From NCBI GenBank assembly GCA_022425465.1, contig JAKMFK010000047.1:1-14309 (forward strand): a stretch of DNA of 14,309 bases. The letters are read 5' to 3'. The notes below the pieces were generated by a model that was not told the DNA's origin, searched no databases, and saw only the letters and a program-made list of their open reading frames with translations. Each line of letters starts with the position of its first letter. Within the stretch, counting starts at the first letter, position 1. The position numbers and the translations under genes were made by a program. Origin of the DNA: Bacteroidia bacterium. Its GTDB lineage: Bacteria > Bacteroidota > Bacteroidia > NS11-12g > UBA9320. Positions 1-5,888 of the stretch are shown here, piece by piece.

Positions 1-975
1 AGATAATAAAGACACGCCAAATTGTGACCGTATTTCAAAGTTACTAGAAATCGATTGTTTGTAGCCAAAATTTAGAGGGATCTCAATAAAATGATACAAA
101 TTTGACCCAACGTGGTTTACATCAACATATGCTAATGGATTAAGTGGGGCGTAATCTGTTATTTCACCATTGGTTACAATAGGAAATTCTGTAATTGTAT
201 ACTTATAGTTCAAGTATTCCGATCGCTGTGTTAAATAAAGCCCACTTGAGATAAATATTTTAGGACTTATATGATACGATAGGTTAATTCCGAAGTTGTT
301 AGCAAATGATGATTTCTCTTGATTTCCAATGTATTGGTTGTAGTTGCGATTGATTAATCCAGAAAGACTATTATTTTCTTGAATAATTTTATTTGATACG
401 CTAGGAGTAAATGACAGGCCATATTCCCACCCTTTAAAAGTTGATTTTATATTATTTGATTTTTCTACATTAGAAATTGGATATATTATAATTTTTTCAA
501 AGTTGAAATCTTGTTGTTCTATACTAATTGCTTTGATTGCCTTTGATTTAATTTTTATAATGAATTCATCGTGATGTGAATTTGATAATTTTAGATCATT
601 TTTTGGAATGACTGAATTGTTTAAAACGATTTTATCCGTTGGATGTATTTTGGGAATTATATCATTTGTTGTTTCAATCGTCAAATCTAGACTCATAGGA
701 TTTTCTACCTTAGCGTCTATAGGTTTGTTTTCAAGGGTGTCAATACTATTGTCTATTTGCAACGCAATTTTTGATGGATTATCATAAACTATATAAGTAA
801 TTACAGAACTAAAAAACATTAATGCAACAAAAGACCACAGGACTATTATGCGTCTTTTTCTGCTATTTAATTTTTGTTCAATAGCATCCCAATCAGAGCT
901 TTGCACTATGCCGCTATGTGGCACGTCAGCTACTGCTTTTTTAAGAATACTATCAATTTGTTTTAATTTATCCAA
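1..975 (-). CDS. Partial dual-membrane anti-sigma-like protein with outer-membrane beta-barrel (Dma-like)
   Basis: An open frame of 325 codons runs to the window edge, so the C-terminus is missing. The only plausible start is TTG at 973-975: an in-frame TAA lies a few codons upstream and no ATG occurs before the membrane helix. Residues 1-40 form a short cytoplasmic head with the SSDWDAIEQKL pattern (residues 26-36) seen at the N-terminus of many Bacteroidota sigma-partner proteins. Arginines and lysines at 39-42 precede one hydrophobic helix at about 43-64. A polar, Asn/Lys/Ile-rich linker follows to about 180. From GWEYGLSFTP (182-191) onward the alternating pattern and the YHFIEIPLNFGYK stretch (294-306) are typical of a small outer-membrane barrel. 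The gene starts 8 nt after the sigma gene stops, so the two are almost certainly co-transcribed. By analogy with Dma proteins of Bacteroides thetaiotaomicron it would hold the sigma factor at the inner membrane and sense the outer membrane. Alternatively it is a plain PorT-like barrel protein. Anti-sigma activity is inferred. Confidence 0.8.
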   Translation of the reverse strand, partial: MDKLKQIDSILKKAVADVPHSGIVQSSDWDAIEQKLNSRKRRIIVLWSFVALMFFSSVITYIVYDNPSKIALQIDNSIDTLENKPIDAKVENPMSLDLTIETTNDIIPKIHPTDKIVLNNSVIPKNDLKLSNSHHDEFIIKIKSKAIKAISIEQQDFNFEKIIIYPISNVEKSNNIKSTFKGWEYGLSFTPSVSNKIIQENNSLSGLINRNYNQYIGNQEKSSFANNFGINLSYHISPKIFISSGLYLTQRSEYLNYKYTITEFPIVTNGEITDYAPLNPLAYVDVNHVGSNLYHFIEIPLNFGYKQSISSNFEIRSQFGVSLLS

Positions 976-983
976 TCTAAATT

Positions 984-1517
984 TTATTTTTTACGCTTCA
1001 GTTTAGCGTTTAACATTGAACGACCTCTGGAAAGTCTGCTTTTTGATGATCCTTCAGAAATCCCTAATTGCTTGGCTATTTCTTTATGGCTTAGTCCGTC
1101 TATGGCATACATATTTAACACTGTTTTATATATTTCAGGTAATTCATTTAATGCTTTGATAACTATTTTGGCTTCTATGTCTTCACTTATGGGTTCTCCA
1201 TCATAATCTGCTTTCTCAAATTTAGTGTCAAACTCGTAGTGGCTGTATTTGTTTCTACCTATTCGATTTCTATTTAAAGCTAAGTTGATAAATATCCTTG
1301 TCATCCAGGTATCTATTTTACTATTTCCTTTAAAGGATTTAATACTAGTTAATACTTTGTAGTATCCATCCTGTAAAAGGTCTTTGGCATCTTCTTGGTT
1401 TTTACAATACCTCATACACACTGCCATCATCTTATTGGCATACTTTTCAAAGAGCATTTTTTGTGCAGATCGATCGTGTTCCTTACATCTTCGTATAAGT
1501 TCTTCTTCACTTATCAA
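984..1517 (-). CDS. ECF RNA polymerase sigma factor
   Basis: The protein has 177 residues, the usual size for an extracytoplasmic-function sigma factor. Region 2 covers about residues 23-90, with the DAKDLLQDGYYKVL core-binding segment (43-56) and the KIDTWMTRIFINLALNRNR segment (67-85) that reads the -10 box. Region 4 covers about 118-172, with a helix-turn-helix around 142-165 (LSHKEIAKQLGISEGSSKSRL). A short acidic linker joins them, and no region 1.1 or 3 is present. The start is TTG at 1515-1517: an in-frame TAA lies just upstream and no ATG fits. There is no clear Shine-Dalgarno sequence. The gene has its own ECF-type promoter (1535-1567), nearly identical to that of the surface protein gene next door, which points to autoregulation. 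The next gene, 8 nt downstream, encodes its likely membrane-bound regulator. Family assignment is firm; the regulon is inferred. Confidence 0.93.
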   Translation of the reverse strand: MISEEELIRRCKEHDRSAQKMLFEKYANKMMAVCMRYCKNQEDAKDLLQDGYYKVLTSIKSFKGNSKIDTWMTRIFINLALNRNRIGRNKYSHYEFDTKFEKADYDGEPISEDIEAKIVIKALNELPEIYKTVLNMYAIDGLSHKEIAKQLGISEGSSKSRLSRGRSMLNAKLKRKK

Positions 1518-1534: not shown

Positions 1535-1567
1535 ATTAGACACTATTTAGAGGTATAGGTTGCAAAA
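1535..1567 (-). promoter_or_regulatory. Putative ECF-type promoter of the sigma factor gene
   Basis: On the minus strand TTTTGCAAC (1559-1567), a 15-nt spacer and GTGTCTAAT (1535-1543) precede the sigma gene. The same two 9-mers recur upstream of the surface protein gene with a 14-nt spacer. An AAC-containing upstream box and a GTC-containing downstream box are the known form of ECF promoters. Transcription would begin close to the TTG start, leaving a leader of roughly 10 nt. The upstream box lies only a few bases after the T-run of the preceding terminator. Confidence 0.65.
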
Positions 1568-1570
1568 GAA

Positions 1571-1608
1571 CAAAAAAAAAGCTCTCCATTTGGAGAGCTT
1601 TTTTTTGA
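1571..1608 (-). terminator. Intrinsic terminator after the surface protein gene, possibly bidirectional
   Basis: GCTCTCCA (1581-1588) and TGGAGAGC (1591-1598) form a perfect 8-bp stem around two T residues (a four-base loop if the closing pair opens). The minus-strand transcript continues into nine consecutive T from 1580 down to 1572, the classic intrinsic form. A run of T also follows on the plus strand, so the hairpin could stop transcription in both directions. It lies 14 nt past the surface protein stop codon and separates that gene from the sigma operon. Confidence 0.9.
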
Positions 1609-1621
1609 TAGGGCTAAATTC

Positions 1622-4600
1622 TTAGTTATTCAAGATAATTTTCTTGGTAACGATAACTCCGTTCAGGTTCATCTTCACGTAGTACATTCCATTTGTATTT
1701 CCTTGAAGGTTCACTGAGAATCTTCCGTTGCTTACTTTACCATTAGCTACTTCAGCTACTTGCTGACCCATGGTGTTGAAGATTGCTATGAATACTTCTT
1801 CATTTTCTGGTAGGTTAACATTGATGTTAACTGGTCCATTTGTTGGGTTTGGAGATACATTAATCATATCCTCCAATGCTAGGTCGCTGATTCCATTAAC
1901 CAATACTTGGTGATCGTAATCTACATCAAAGTATAGTGTGAACTCTCTTGACATGTTTCCTGAGTTATCCTCTGTCTTGAAGATCACTGAGTATAATCCA
2001 GCTTCTTCCAGGTTCAAGTCATTGAATACCAAAGTATGGTTCAATCTCAAGTCTGCAGGTGAGTCGTAGTTGTCAGAGAAGTTTACAAAGTTGATTGCAT
2101 CTACCTTTGATCCTACTCCTATTTTCACGACTCCTCCTACTTTACCTGTGATCTCTGGTGCGATATCATCGATTACATTTACCGTTCTAACTTTTACTGA
2201 CACGTTTCCTGCAGCATCTGTTGCTGTGTATGTATCTTGGTAAGTTCCTAGTGTATATGCATCTACATTCGATGTACTTGTCAAACTAATTTGAGTGTTG
2301 TCATATAAGTTATCTGAAGCACTCGCACTTATAGGTGTGTATGGTGTATTTACTCGGTGGTTTACTACATCTAGTGTACGTAAATCAATTACTGGTGGGA
2401 TGTAATCTCTCACTACATAATCAATACATTGTGTTGCTACGTTTCCACTTTCATCAGTTGCTGTATAGGTTACTGACGTTGTTCCTTGGAATCGCGTATC
2501 TACCGATGCTCCTCCGTTGCTTGCTGCTGGATTTGCTGTAAACACTAACCCATCTCCAATGCTATTGTAGTTATCCGCTGCCGAAGTTACATCAGCAAAA
2601 ATGTTTTGTAGCTGTACGTCCACTGTCCAACATGCAGTTGATTTATCTGCATTTGGATTGTCGATTACAGGTACTTGTGTATCTACCACTCGTACAATTC
2701 GTACATCTGATGATGCATTTCCTTGATTATCCATAACGCTATAAGTTATCGTGTACTCACCAAGTGTATTTACATCTACTTCTCCCGATACAACTATCGC
2801 ACTTGAGATGTTTCCTTCTTTGTTATCGATAGCTACTGCTGGTAAATCTACCCATGCTGTTCCTACTTCTATAGTTGTGTCTGCTGCTCCCGTAATAGTA
2901 ATTACTGGTGGAGTTTGATCCGACACAACATAAACTACTCTAGTTACTGGCAATGCCTCATTTCCTGATGCATCCATTGCAAAGTAGGTCTCGTAGTAGA
3001 TTCCTGGTAATGTCTGATCTACATCTGAAGATACCGTGATATTATTGGTAATATCTCCTTGTGATGGGTCATTTGCAGTTGCTCCTGGCGATACATAGTT
3101 TACATCTGCTTGTGTAGCTACCTGCTCAATGTATAAGGTATCTGCATCAATAAGTGTAATTACTGGCATATCACCATCATTCACTACTTGGATAGCATAG
3201 TCCTCAAACTCTCCAATTCGGTTTGCACTTGCACTAGTAGTTGCTCCACATGGTAAGTTGTCATCTGAACCATAAGAAACACCCACTCTCATTAGTGTTT
3301 TTGAAGCAAATGCTCCTGTGATTGTAGGCACTGTGAAGCTTCCTGTCCAGCTTAATGTGCTAGCCTGAGTCTCTGTACCTACTAGCTCTCCTGCATCATC
3401 AAAATCACCATCTACGTTCCAATCAATCCATACTTTTCTGTTCATGGTGTTTACGTTGGTGTTTCGCTTAATTGTGAAGTTGTACTTTCCTCCAAAGTTT
3501 AATGATGTGGTTCCTAAATCGGTGTAATCGGTGTACTCATGACCCGCTCCTGATTCACTTGTATTTTCAAACTTATCTCCTGAAATAGGATCTTCAATAC
3601 TTACATAATTGATTCCTACGTCATCTGATGTAGTCACTCCAATTACAGGTGTACAGTGTGATACTACTACAATGTATGCCGTCTTTACAACTGTCGCTTC
3701 GGATGCTGCAGAGTCGACACTGTTGTATCCTTTACACTGAACCGTATAAGTTCCCGGTGTATTGAATTTGAATGAACGTACATTAGATGTAGTTGCCGCT
3801 GGTGCATTAGCTACTACATCTGTTCCGCTGTTAGGGAAGAATGTCCACTCCCAGTTATTAGCCTTATCACTTGTTGCAGTGAAGGTCACATCTCCGCCCA
3901 ATGCTGGTCGTTGTGTGTTGGCTGTAAAATCTAAATTCGTTGTAGAGTTTGGTTCAACTACATCAAACGTACGACTCTTTGTGCTTGTTCTTCCATCACA
4001 TGCAATTACTTTAAGTTCTAGGGTATATTTTCCATTCGTTAAGAACGTATATGAGAAATCTTTAGTAGTTGCAGAGGTGTTTACTGGACCTGTTAATGTC
4101 CACTCAAACTTGGTACTTCCTTCTGCATTAGCTGAAGTATTACCAAAAGCTACATTTACTGCATTATACAACGTAGTAGATGGGTAGCTATAATCAGCTA
4201 TAGGTGCTGCAGCTGTTCCTGCTACACTTGTCCAATTGGCTGTAAATCCTGCTGCAGTTGCTCCATTAGTAGATGTCCATAGCATGTACATCGCTCCTGA
4301 ACTAGCCGTAACTGTTCCTGACGGGGCATTTCCTGAAGTAAATCCATTTCCGGTATGCAAAGGTGTTCCTAGTGCATTCACACCGTCATAAATCTTAAGT
4401 GTTGCGTTAGCTCTTAGGTCAAATGAGGTAAAGTCTAAACTTACACTTGATGCACCACATGGGGCGATCAATGCTTCTGTAGTCTTATTATTACCATAGT
4501 TACCTGTTGGACCTCCATCGTCATAGATGGTTCCCGCTGATACGTTAATGACGTTAGCTGGTAAAGCTGTTCCTGCTCCCATGTTGTAGCTTGAACGTTG

Positions 4601-5806
4601 AATCGTAACATAACCTACCTTTTTAGCGTCGTTTCCAGCACCAATACTATTAGATGCAGTTAAGTAAACATCCCAGACTCCAATAGGAACTGCTCCCATA
4701 AAGTTTCCTGTAATTACGCTTGGGCTTTTATTTACATAAGGATCTCCACCTCGAAGTGCGGCAATATCATCTCCATCCAAGGTATCTAAAGTTGTTGGGT
4801 TAACAAATACCCAGTTCCAATAGGTAGGACCATTGGTACTCAAATCCGTAAGCTGAACCGACTCAAATATCTCATATACACTCTTATCTGCAATAAAATC
4901 AGATACCGGTGGTGCAGTTGGGGAAGTAATTGTAATTTTTTTAGTGATTGAGTCAACACCGTTACAATTGGCACTAACTAGTTTTACATCATAAGTACCT
5001 GCAGTAGAGAAAACATGAGTGGTATTGGTTGAGCTGTAGGAAGCACCATCCATTGACCAACTGTGTGAAATATATCCTTCTTGGTTTGCATTGTTAAACT
5101 TTACAGGAGTACCGAGATATGCAGTAGCAGGACTTACAAAGTCTGCAACTGTTGTTGACGGAGCAACATAATCACAAGTGTAATCTTCAGTTTCACCATA
5201 ATAGTTTTGTTGACTATGACTTCCAGAACCCTGTCGTCTGAAGTTGTAATCTGTTCTTACACGTAACCTAACAGTTCCTGTAGTTCCTCCACATGGGACA
5301 GTAAAGTTAAAACTTCTTTTGCCATTGTGGGGTATTAATATATTATTTGGCACAACCCATTCTCCTGCATCAGCAAAATCTTTATCTCCATTGTAATCTA
5401 TCCAAACCCCTAAGCTAGCTGTGTACCATGTTGAGTTGTTTGGATTAGAAGAACCTACTGTCATTTTGTAAGTAGATCCAGCACTTAAATTGAAAGCTGT
5501 TGTGGGCTCAATAAGATTGTAGTGTGCAGCACCTGTTACGTTGACATTAGGGTTTTGGGTACACCCGTCTGAACTTTTCGAGTAAACAACATTTCCATTA
5601 AGATCTTCGATAACAACCTCGTTGATTGATGAATATCTTGTGTAAGTGACACCTGTACCTCTATTATACTGACATCCGTAAGTATGTTTTGGTTGATTGT
5701 AACTTTGAGCTTCTGCTACAAAGTTTAATAAGAGCAAAGACAAGATTGTTAATGCTTTGCTAATCAGGCTTTTAAAAGCCGGCAATTGAGTATTTGTTTT
5801 TACCAT
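1622..5806 (-). CDS. Large secreted multidomain surface protein with T9SS C-terminal sorting domain
   Basis: This 1394-residue protein has a signal peptide (1-33, cleavage probably after AEA). By eye the following domains are: GEVED domain (about 43-214, GETEDY at 204-209), two PKD-like domains (219-295, 299-403), a CUB-like domain (404-529, IYDG at 472-475), two more PKD-like domains (533-618, 622-716), a second GEVED domain (718-876, GEFEDY at 865-870), five HYR/DUF5011-type Ig-like repeats (880-1296, recurring D.SGN motifs) and a type A T9SS sorting domain (about 1310-1394, SPNPTNGPVNI). Both GEVED domains hold Asp-rich loops (137-148 and 795-806) that look able to bind calcium. No enzyme domain is visible. 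The protein is probably exported by the Sec and type IX systems and anchored on or released from the surface as an adhesin or matrix protein. An ECF-type promoter lies upstream and a strong terminator downstream, so it is monocistronic. Codons favour AAC, ATC and AAG near the 3' end, unlike neighbouring genes, which may reflect high expression. The binding target is unknown. Confidence 0.93.
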   Translation of the reverse strand: MVKTNTQLPAFKSLISKALTILSLLLLNFVAEAQSYNQPKHTYGCQYNRGTGVTYTRYSSINEVVIEDLNGNVVYSKSSDGCTQNPNVNVTGAAHYNLIEPTTAFNLSAGSTYKMTVGSSNPNNSTWYTASLGVWIDYNGDKDFADAGEWVVPNNILIPHNGKRSFNFTVPCGGTTGTVRLRVRTDYNFRRQGSGSHSQQNYYGETEDYTCDYVAPSTTVADFVSPATAYLGTPVKFNNANQEGYISHSWSMDGASYSSTNTTHVFSTAGTYDVKLVSANCNGVDSITKKITITSPTAPPVSDFIADKSVYEIFESVQLTDLSTNGPTYWNWVFVNPTTLDTLDGDDIAALRGGDPYVNKSPSVITGNFMGAVPIGVWDVYLTASNSIGAGNDAKKVGYVTIQRSSYNMGAGTALPANVINVSAGTIYDDGGPTGNYGNNKTTEALIAPCGASSVSLDFTSFDLRANATLKIYDGVNALGTPLHTGNGFTSGNAPSGTVTASSGAMYMLWTSTNGATAAGFTANWTSVAGTAAAPIADYSYPSTTLYNAVNVAFGNTSANAEGSTKFEWTLTGPVNTSATTKDFSYTFLTNGKYTLELKVIACDGRTSTKSRTFDVVEPNSTTNLDFTANTQRPALGGDVTFTATSDKANNWEWTFFPNSGTDVVANAPAATTSNVRSFKFNTPGTYTVQCKGYNSVDSAASEATVVKTAYIVVVSHCTPVIGVTTSDDVGINYVSIEDPISGDKFENTSESGAGHEYTDYTDLGTTSLNFGGKYNFTIKRNTNVNTMNRKVWIDWNVDGDFDDAGELVGTETQASTLSWTGSFTVPTITGAFASKTLMRVGVSYGSDDNLPCGATTSASANRIGEFEDYAIQVVNDGDMPVITLIDADTLYIEQVATQADVNYVSPGATANDPSQGDITNNITVSSDVDQTLPGIYYETYFAMDASGNEALPVTRVVYVVSDQTPPVITITGAADTTIEVGTAWVDLPAVAIDNKEGNISSAIVVSGEVDVNTLGEYTITYSVMDNQGNASSDVRIVRVVDTQVPVIDNPNADKSTACWTVDVQLQNIFADVTSAADNYNSIGDGLVFTANPAASNGGASVDTRFQGTTSVTYTATDESGNVATQCIDYVVRDYIPPVIDLRTLDVVNHRVNTPYTPISASASDNLYDNTQISLTSTSNVDAYTLGTYQDTYTATDAAGNVSVKVRTVNVIDDIAPEITGKVGGVVKIGVGSKVDAINFVNFSDNYDSPADLRLNHTLVFNDLNLEEAGLYSVIFKTEDNSGNMSREFTLYFDVDYDHQVLVNGISDLALEDMINVSPNPTNGPVNINVNLPENEEVFIAIFNTMGQQVAEVANGKVSNGRFSVNLQGNTNGMYYVKMNLNGVIVTKKIILNN

Positions 5807-5844
5807 AATAATTAGTTTGTTACGTTCTTTAAAAAATTGAATTT

Positions 5845-5852
5845 CAAATATA
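5845..5852 (-). promoter_or_regulatory. TAnnTTTG-like motif in the leader of the surface protein gene
   Basis: The minus strand reads TATATTTG, an exact match to the Bacteroidota housekeeping -7 consensus, 38 nt upstream of the ATG. No TTG box stands at the usual distance upstream, and the motif falls just downstream of the ECF-type -10 box. It may be a secondary promoter or chance in AT-rich DNA. Confidence 0.25.
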
Positions 5853-5856
5853 TAGA

Positions 5857-5888
5857 ATTAGACACGCTTTTCTTGAATAGTTGCAAAA
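5857..5888 (-). promoter_or_regulatory. Putative ECF-type promoter of the surface protein gene
   Basis: On the minus strand TTTTGCAAC (5880-5888), 14 nt, then GTGTCTAAT (5857-5865). Both boxes are identical to those before the sigma factor gene. Transcription would start near 5850 and give a leader of about 43 nt before the ATG. The shared element suggests that the adjacent sigma factor controls this gene. Confidence 0.65.

Follow-up and report, generated by a model that had tools for sequence, protein, structure and literature searches.

The 14,309 nt contig JAKMFK010000047.1 of a Bacteroidia bacterium (assembly GCA_022425465.1), referred to here as the window, carries on its minus strand the gene for a surface protein exported by the type IX secretion system (T9SS), an intrinsic terminator, the gene for an extracytoplasmic function (ECF) sigma factor and a truncated gene for a putative anti-sigma factor resembling Dma of Bacteroides thetaiotaomicron. 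The same pair of 9 nt boxes lies upstream of the surface gene and of the sigma gene, and in related genomes the strict form of this motif is conserved and found almost exclusively upstream of these two kinds of gene. On this comparative evidence, we consider it likely that the sigma and anti-sigma factors form an autoregulated pair resembling Das/Dma, and that the sigma factor of the locus recognises both sites as ECF promoters and would thereby control T9SS-displayed proteins. A first-pass annotation of the window had predicted ECF promoters, autoregulation and the adjoining T9SS protein as a direct target, and the comparisons described here support that prediction. The Dma-like trans-envelope anti-sigma factor, the third gene of the operon, the terminator and a TAnnTTTG element at the surface promoter go beyond it. 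The features concerned are:

1..975, minus strand: gene for a Dma-like anti-sigma factor, truncated at the contig end (325 of approximately 413 aa), with predicted N-terminal helices, membrane helix, tether and the start of a barrel
984..1517, minus strand: gene for an ECF sigma factor of 177 aa, probably starting at TTG, from Pfam profiles and structure matches
1535..1543, minus strand: -10-type box GTGTCTAAT of the putative sigma operon promoter, conserved in relatives and found by the matrix
1559..1567, minus strand: -35-type box TTTTGCAAC (core TGCAACC) of the putative sigma operon promoter, ranked first in the window by the matrix
1572..1606, minus strand: intrinsic terminator (GCTCTCC/GGAGAGC stem and T-run) between the surface gene and the sigma promoter
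1622..5806, minus strand: T9SS-exported surface protein gene, 1394 aa, from Pfam/NCBIfam profiles and inspection
5857..5865, minus strand: -10-type box GTGTCTAAT of the putative surface gene promoter, from the matrix, the motif search in family genomes and the promoter alignment
5880..5888, minus strand: -35-type box TTTTGCAAC of the putative surface gene promoter, on the same evidence

Two matching sites in the window

The order, strand, coordinates and spacers of the boxes are as the first-pass annotation gave them, namely TTTTGCAAC-N15-GTGTCTAAT upstream of the sigma gene (1567..1535) and TTTTGCAAC-N14-GTGTCTAAT upstream of the surface gene (5888..5857), both on the minus strand. The start codon of the sigma gene (TTG, 1517) is separated from its -10 box by 17 nt, and that of the surface gene (ATG, 5806) by 50 nt. 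An AAC in the -35 box and a GTC in the -10 box at ECF spacing are the hallmarks of ECF promoters, and both sites display them.

It could be argued that the paired 9-mers arose by chance, or are a repeat copied between intergenic regions, and have no promoter role, and each box on its own is indeed short. However, when the window was shuffled 200 times with its dinucleotide composition kept, the pair never appeared, and the looser pattern TGCAAC-N13-18-GTCTAA matched the window twice where 0.01 matches were expected, bearing out the claim that the pair is beyond chance. The spacers and flanks of the two sites are also unlike each other, and the motif is conserved and specifically located (see below). 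We regard this explanation as practically inconceivable.

The window is one whole contig (G000:C241) of an assembly of 1.78 Mb in 309 contigs that is 87.8 % complete, and when the whole assembly was searched with the looser pattern the same two sites were the sole matches. Further sites with up to three mismatches were at chance level, with one found at a spacer of 14 nt against five for the reversed-pattern control, and four at a spacer of 15 nt against three. Though the window was scanned by matrix, its genome was scanned by pattern and is incomplete, and the regulon may exceed two promoters. The two-box matrix was built from the sigma promoters of 19 relatives (11 distinct box pairs), excluding those of the window and of the near-identical G007. 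It placed the sigma promoter first in the window (score 31.8), the surface promoter second (27.4) and the next non-overlapping site at 10.2, and the maxima from 60 dinucleotide shuffles averaged 11.6, the best being 21.9.

Conservation and location of the motif in relatives

A search of 58 genomes was used to collect sigma loci, and the loci of 30 best sigma matches (47–100 % identity, the window included) were read. TGCAACC lies directly upstream of the sigma gene in 30/30 loci, and the -10 box takes the forms GTGTCTAA (15 loci), GTGTCTAT (6), AGTCTAT (4) and GCGTCATT (5), with GTGTCTA present in 21 of the 30. Two more distant loci, G050 and G053 (42–45 % identity), have TGCAACC with the GTC variants CACGTCAT and CATAGTCAA, respectively. 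Among 80 loci from named genomes, six of which seem to duplicate genomes already counted, TGCAAC was found within 150 nt in 28 against approximately 3.7 expected from the hexamer frequency, and 14 of these 28 have a GTC box at promoter distance. By eye, the Cytophagales sigma loci carry TCCAAC...GTGTCTAA and those of Parabacteroides TGCAGCGTTT...CATC, and hence the promoter seems to drift along with the sigma factor.

When 38 genomes of the family were searched with the strict pattern TGCAAC-N14-16-GTGTCTAA, 23 matches in 19 genomes were obtained, against a single match for the reversed pattern. Fifteen are upstream of the sigma gene and six upstream of the syntenic surface gene. The remaining two precede a relative of the surface gene that encodes GEVED and PKD domains and is truncated by the end of its contig (G023), and a type A T9SS gene of 1037 aa (G021). 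The first-pass annotation had held that many copies within coding regions would speak against a promoter, and none of the 23 strict matches in these genomes falls within an open frame of at least 100 aa on either strand. The loose pattern TGCAAC-N13-17-GTCTAA gave 76 matches in 35 family genomes against 43 for the reversed control, and many of these are background.

The sigma operon and the surface gene

The sigma factor matches Sigma70_r2 and Sigma70_r4_2 above the cut-off and contains nothing beyond regions 2 and 4, as is required of an ECF sigma factor, and it matches the solved ECF sigma factors SigW, SigH and sigma-E. The terminator was found between the stop codon of the surface gene and the -35 box of the sigma gene in 10/10 syntenic loci examined, and the sigma gene therefore needs a promoter of its own. 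The order surface gene, sigma gene, anti-sigma gene seen in the window recurs in nine more genomes (G017, G012, G009, G006, G016, G027, G033, G024 and G021) and in a locus from a named metagenome-assembled genome (L105). Downstream of the sigma gene, relatives have a gene for a protein of mostly 410–480 aa and then one for a protein of approximately 800–820 aa. This third gene lies beyond the window and the full operon is seen in relatives alone. Its product includes DUF7619 in 4/4 cases tested and a sorting tail above the cut-off in three of the four; that of the nearest relative, G007, received no Pfam tail call and has an end that is tail-like by eye.

The surface protein, termed giant in the first-pass annotation, is 1394 aa long and includes a signal peptide (by inspection), GEVED, PKD and CUB-like domains (the last just below the cut-off), three Ig-like stretches and a type A sorting tail matching both Por_Secre_tail (PF18962) and TIGR04183 above the cut-off, as expected of T9SS cargo. 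Of the T9SS machinery, PorV was found in the same genome, where 58 sorting-tail matches exceed the cut-off. The SprA model matched nothing anywhere, controls included, and hence is uninformative.

In many assemblies contigs break at or in the surface gene, and in several genomes the gene is present twice in tandem (G007:C85, G018:C178, G004:C8, G013:C139, G011:C11, G002:C33, G003:C237 and G010:C15), which suggests that this gene is repetitive or variable. The surface gene of G033 (oriented L072, 2941-7181) and the anti-sigma gene of G009 (L064, 9185-10550) are each split over two reading frames by a frameshift or an assembly error.

The putative anti-sigma factor

In the window and in relatives, the anti-sigma gene adjoins the sigma gene. 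The fold was predicted for a full-length relative (L082), which shares 38 % identity with the truncated copy of the window, together with eight relatives, and the L082 model has a mean predicted local distance difference test (pLDDT) score of 66.5 and a predicted template modelling (pTM) score of 0.52. It consists of helices at 3-20, 29-39 and 42-83, all at low confidence, a predicted tether at residues 62-196 with pLDDT <50, and eight long barrel strands (198-426), mostly at pLDDT 80-95; a single hydrophobic stretch lies near residue 54. The best matches in the PDB are outer-membrane barrels, OmpA being first (E 2e-06) with the others of the OmpA type below 1e-04. The model therefore has the Dma layout of an N-terminal domain, a single membrane helix, a disordered tether and a C-terminal barrel in one chain, and the protein is predicted to span the envelope. 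Alignment with hhalign gave a probability of 99 % over 67 N-terminal columns to five proteins of the same layout from Parabacteroides and Dysgonomonas (putative Dma), with the barrel unaligned. Of two downstream genes tested at such Bacteroidales loci, that in Parabacteroides (L129) is NigD-like and that in Dysgonomonas (L111) is unrecognised.

Which sigma factor reads the surface gene promoter

Several observations weigh against the view that the sigma factor of the locus reads both promoters under the control of a Dma-like protein. The upstream regions of 15 surface genes, that of the window included, were read, and the conservation of the boxes in related genomes, seen for the -35 core in all sigma loci read, extends to eight of these, in which the motif is intact or has a -10 box with one change and scores at least 23.8 (G000, G017, G012, G009 copy 2, G006 copy 2, G003, G010 and G016 copy 1). 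G027 follows at 23.7 with GTATCTAA. The motif is altered in G033 (19.4, with GTGTCGAT) and degraded in G021 (8.1), copy 2 of G016 has just a weak, misplaced site (12.8), and among the 15 regions no motif was found in those of G006 copy 1, G009 copy 1 and G024. In the neighbouring family, the loose motif is not enriched (32 matches against 34 in the control, 23 genomes), and from the counts in both families the loose pattern alone is a weak means of finding regulon members. The window copy of the anti-sigma gene is cut and its fold is taken from the 38 % identical L082, the N-terminal part of which has pLDDT 46-58. The genus also has paralogous ECF sigma factors with similar -35 boxes, and GCAACTATT in the surface copy resembles the kind of paralogue promoter that reads GGCAAC or GACAAC...CATCT.

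Within the genus, the promoter block of the surface gene is near-identical in five species and the DNA 5' of the block aligns poorly. The motif appears to be used strongly at surface genes within the genus and patchily outside it.

The similarity of the -35 boxes makes cross-reading by paralogous sigma factors possible, and the boxes could be ECF promoters of which the neighbouring sigma factor reads that of its own operon only, the surface gene being read mainly by a paralogue such as G000:C201. The promoters of the genus paralogues are indeed related and have GCAAC in the -35 box, and GCAACTATT is common to the surface copy and the promoter of the C201 type, GGCAACTATTCC...CATCT. Upstream regions of 20 paralogues were fetched, and 19 were usable after L205, wrongly placed inside a gene, was excluded. 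Eight of the 19 carry TGCAACATATTTGCA...GTCT, ten carry GGCAAC or GACAAC...CATCT and one carries TGCAACCAAAC. However, the -10 core of the surface promoter, GTGTCTAA, is that of the linked sigma factor and is absent from 20/20 paralogue regions fetched (19 rightly placed), and for this reason the linked sigma factor is favoured as the reader of the surface gene. In addition, the surface gene and the linked sigma gene are syntenic across genera, and a matrix made from the promoters of the linked sigma factor ranks the surface site far above background. Reading mainly by a paralogue is, we believe, quite improbable. The paralogues with TGCAACATATTTGCA...GTCT (L203, L208, L209, L211, L214, L215, L219 and L221) have this as a conserved block of their own, palindromic around the -35 box.

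A second element is present at the surface gene:

5845..5852, minus strand: TATATTTG, a match to the housekeeping -7 box TAnnTTTG and a possible second promoter, 13 nt past the start of the ECF -10 box

TAnnTTTG is given as the housekeeping -7 consensus in the part of PMC9723704 that deals with it. It is found at the 13 nt offset in 7/14 surface gene upstream regions, compared to none of 17 sigma promoters, and likewise exactly 13 nt past the ECF -10 start in L170 (G032:C10), an unrelated T9SS type B gene with another domain make-up. Hence, the surface gene might be transcribed mainly by the housekeeping sigma factor from this element, the ECF boxes being either an added means of induction or a relic. 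Against this, inspection of the aligned surface promoters by eye showed no -33 TTTG at its customary spacing, and conservation is equally strong for the ECF boxes and for TAnnTTTG. The two can coexist. We consider housekeeping transcription as the main source rather unlikely. As TAnnTTTG stands at this offset in half of the surface regions and is absent from the sigma promoters, it is plausible that basal housekeeping transcription is combined with ECF induction. The reading that we prefer is still that the linked sigma factor drives transcription of the sigma operon as well as of the surface gene.

Other candidate targets

The 76 loose matches in family genomes include 21 that are sigma promoters or syntenic surface promoters. 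Of the other 55, 40 were fetched, and 11 of the remaining 15 (seven and four) were inspected separately. Nine of the 40 lie 6–42 nt upstream of the start codon of an open reading frame (ORF) of at least 150 aa, the start codons being assumed for L171 and L178, where the open frame reaches upstream through the motif; L181, L183, L186 and L197 were dropped as longer frames cross the motif. In eight of the nine cases the product is a surface or T9SS protein. Six of these have sorting tails, and the other two have GEVED/PKD domains and are truncated at contig ends. The ninth, L168, starts a protein of 516 aa. The probability of eight T9SS genes among nine by chance is approximately 2e-11 at a cargo frequency of 3.6 % (58 tail matches in approximately 1600 genes, the gene number being assumed) and approximately 8e-8 at 10 %, and these values are rough, as L178 and L188 are one gene in two species and the candidate set was of our own choosing.

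Four candidates score near the background and were rejected as targets of this sigma factor, namely L178 and L188 (both 11.4), L168 (10.6) and L191 (7.5); L178 and L188 may belong to another sigma factor. The six remaining T9SS or surface candidates score 20.4–32.9, with L170 and L171 below the best shuffle. No further surface gene was found among the 11 matches inspected separately except at G018:C159, where the promoter resembles that of L188 and the contig ends at once. The motif was also rejected as a general promoter of T9SS cargo because, despite the 58 sorting-tail matches in the window's genome, just one T9SS gene there has it.

Some matches precede regions free of ORFs. Those at L184:6926-7069 (G002:C1) and L179 (G015:C131) belong to homologous elements (81 % over approximately 70 nt) made up of an ECF-type promoter, TGCAACCATTTAA...GGGTCTAA, approximately 100 nt including ACTAC(A/G)TGTTGTAG, and a strong terminator. 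With matrix scores of 23.7 and 27.3, respectively, they are candidates for a sigma-driven small RNA, and they are present in these two members of the genus and were not found in the genome of the window. L173 (G022:C71), likewise free of ORFs and with an ECF-type promoter of fair quality (23.1), is possibly also a small RNA. Four loci of genus g3 (L191, L193, L196 and L198) share TGCAAC...CGTCTAA and, after it, a conserved stretch without ORFs that has GGGGCTTTTTC or GAGGCTTTTTC at its end; they probably belong to another regulator, to go by the low score of L191, the sole one scored, and the stretch may be a structured RNA. No Rfam match at the gathering threshold was obtained in seven candidate loci and the window. 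L185 (G003:C92) combines an ECF-type promoter, a signal peptide like that of the surface protein, a frame break and a C-terminal tail resembling that of the large surface protein, and is the result of either a collapse in the assembly or a deletion.

Relationship to known systems

Autoregulation is ordinary among ECF sigma factors, and the parts of this locus are all of known kinds. No report of a Dma-like pair whose operon and a matching promoter serve T9SS-exported surface proteins was found in searches of openly licensed papers.

The Das/Dma systems of B. thetaiotaomicron, as set out in the relevant part of PMC13088901, consist of an ECF21 sigma factor and a dual membrane-spanning anti-sigma factor. 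The locus described here resembles them in having a sigma gene that adjoins the gene for a protein with an N-terminal domain of the sigma-binding type, one membrane helix, a disordered tether and a C-terminal barrel, and in having an extra downstream gene (PMC13088901). There is no ECF21 model among the listed Pfam/NCBIfam matches. The linked genes differ, being those of T9SS-exported surface proteins here, whereas the B. thetaiotaomicron systems are connected in that account to vesiculation, nigD1 (for Dma1), the dma2 operon and polysaccharide utilization loci (PMC13088901).

ECF control of T9SS component genes has been reported in Porphyromonas gingivalis and indicated in Flavobacterium psychrophilum (PMC4800418, PMC7712824, PMC9723704; here and below as far as the portions of these papers drawn on go). 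In P. gingivalis, the ECF sigma factor SigP of the SigP-PorXY system is tied to the T9SS and sigP is reported to be autoregulated, and the T9SS-tail protein PorA signals upstream (PMC4800418, PMC7712824). Though a link to the T9SS and autoregulation, both predicted for our locus, would be shared, SigP is activated via PorX and controls T9SS component genes, the published P. gingivalis motif is unlike TGCAAC/GTGTCTAA, and those portions describe no Dma-like anti-sigma factor for SigP, whereas a Dma-like gene adjoins the sigma gene here (PMC4800418, PMC7712824). With a different neighbour, promoters and targets, our sigma factor does not appear to be of the P. gingivalis SigP type (PMC4800418). 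The SM6 promoters of F. psychrophilum are ECF-type with CGT in the -10 region, and the set includes an ECF sigma/anti-sigma operon and T9SS genes, but the latter encode machinery (gldN, porU and others) rather than a large neighbouring cargo protein, and which sigma factor reads SM6 is left open in that study (PMC9723704).

A proposed module for surface display

The sigma operon would supply the sigma factor, a trans-envelope anti-sigma factor and a protein of approximately 810 aa that is usually T9SS-tailed. At rest, the anti-sigma factor would hold the sigma factor, itself being anchored by its inner-membrane helix and an outer-membrane barrel of about eight strands, and a signal at the outer membrane would release it. 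The freed sigma factor would then bind the two matching promoters and transcribe its own operon and the gene for the T9SS-displayed surface protein, which may have a role in attachment.

An extension of this scheme, which we regard as doubtful, is a closed feedback loop in which the anti-sigma barrel would sense a product displayed via the T9SS (either the giant surface protein or the protein of approximately 810 aa from the sigma operon), or its occupancy or attachment, and free the sigma factor to adjust adhesin display, with sigma-driven small RNAs added in some relatives. If so, the state of the surface display system would be relayed to the promoter by a single polypeptide.

The regulator and the surface protein are probably switched on together in response to an event at the outer membrane. 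The module would tie a Dma-type anti-sigma factor to a very small regulon, with two promoters found in an incomplete genome and a product displayed via the T9SS, and could provide a clean system for studying signal relay from the outer membrane to RNA polymerase by a single protein. The promoter motif also picks out surface protein genes in uncultured Bacteroidota.

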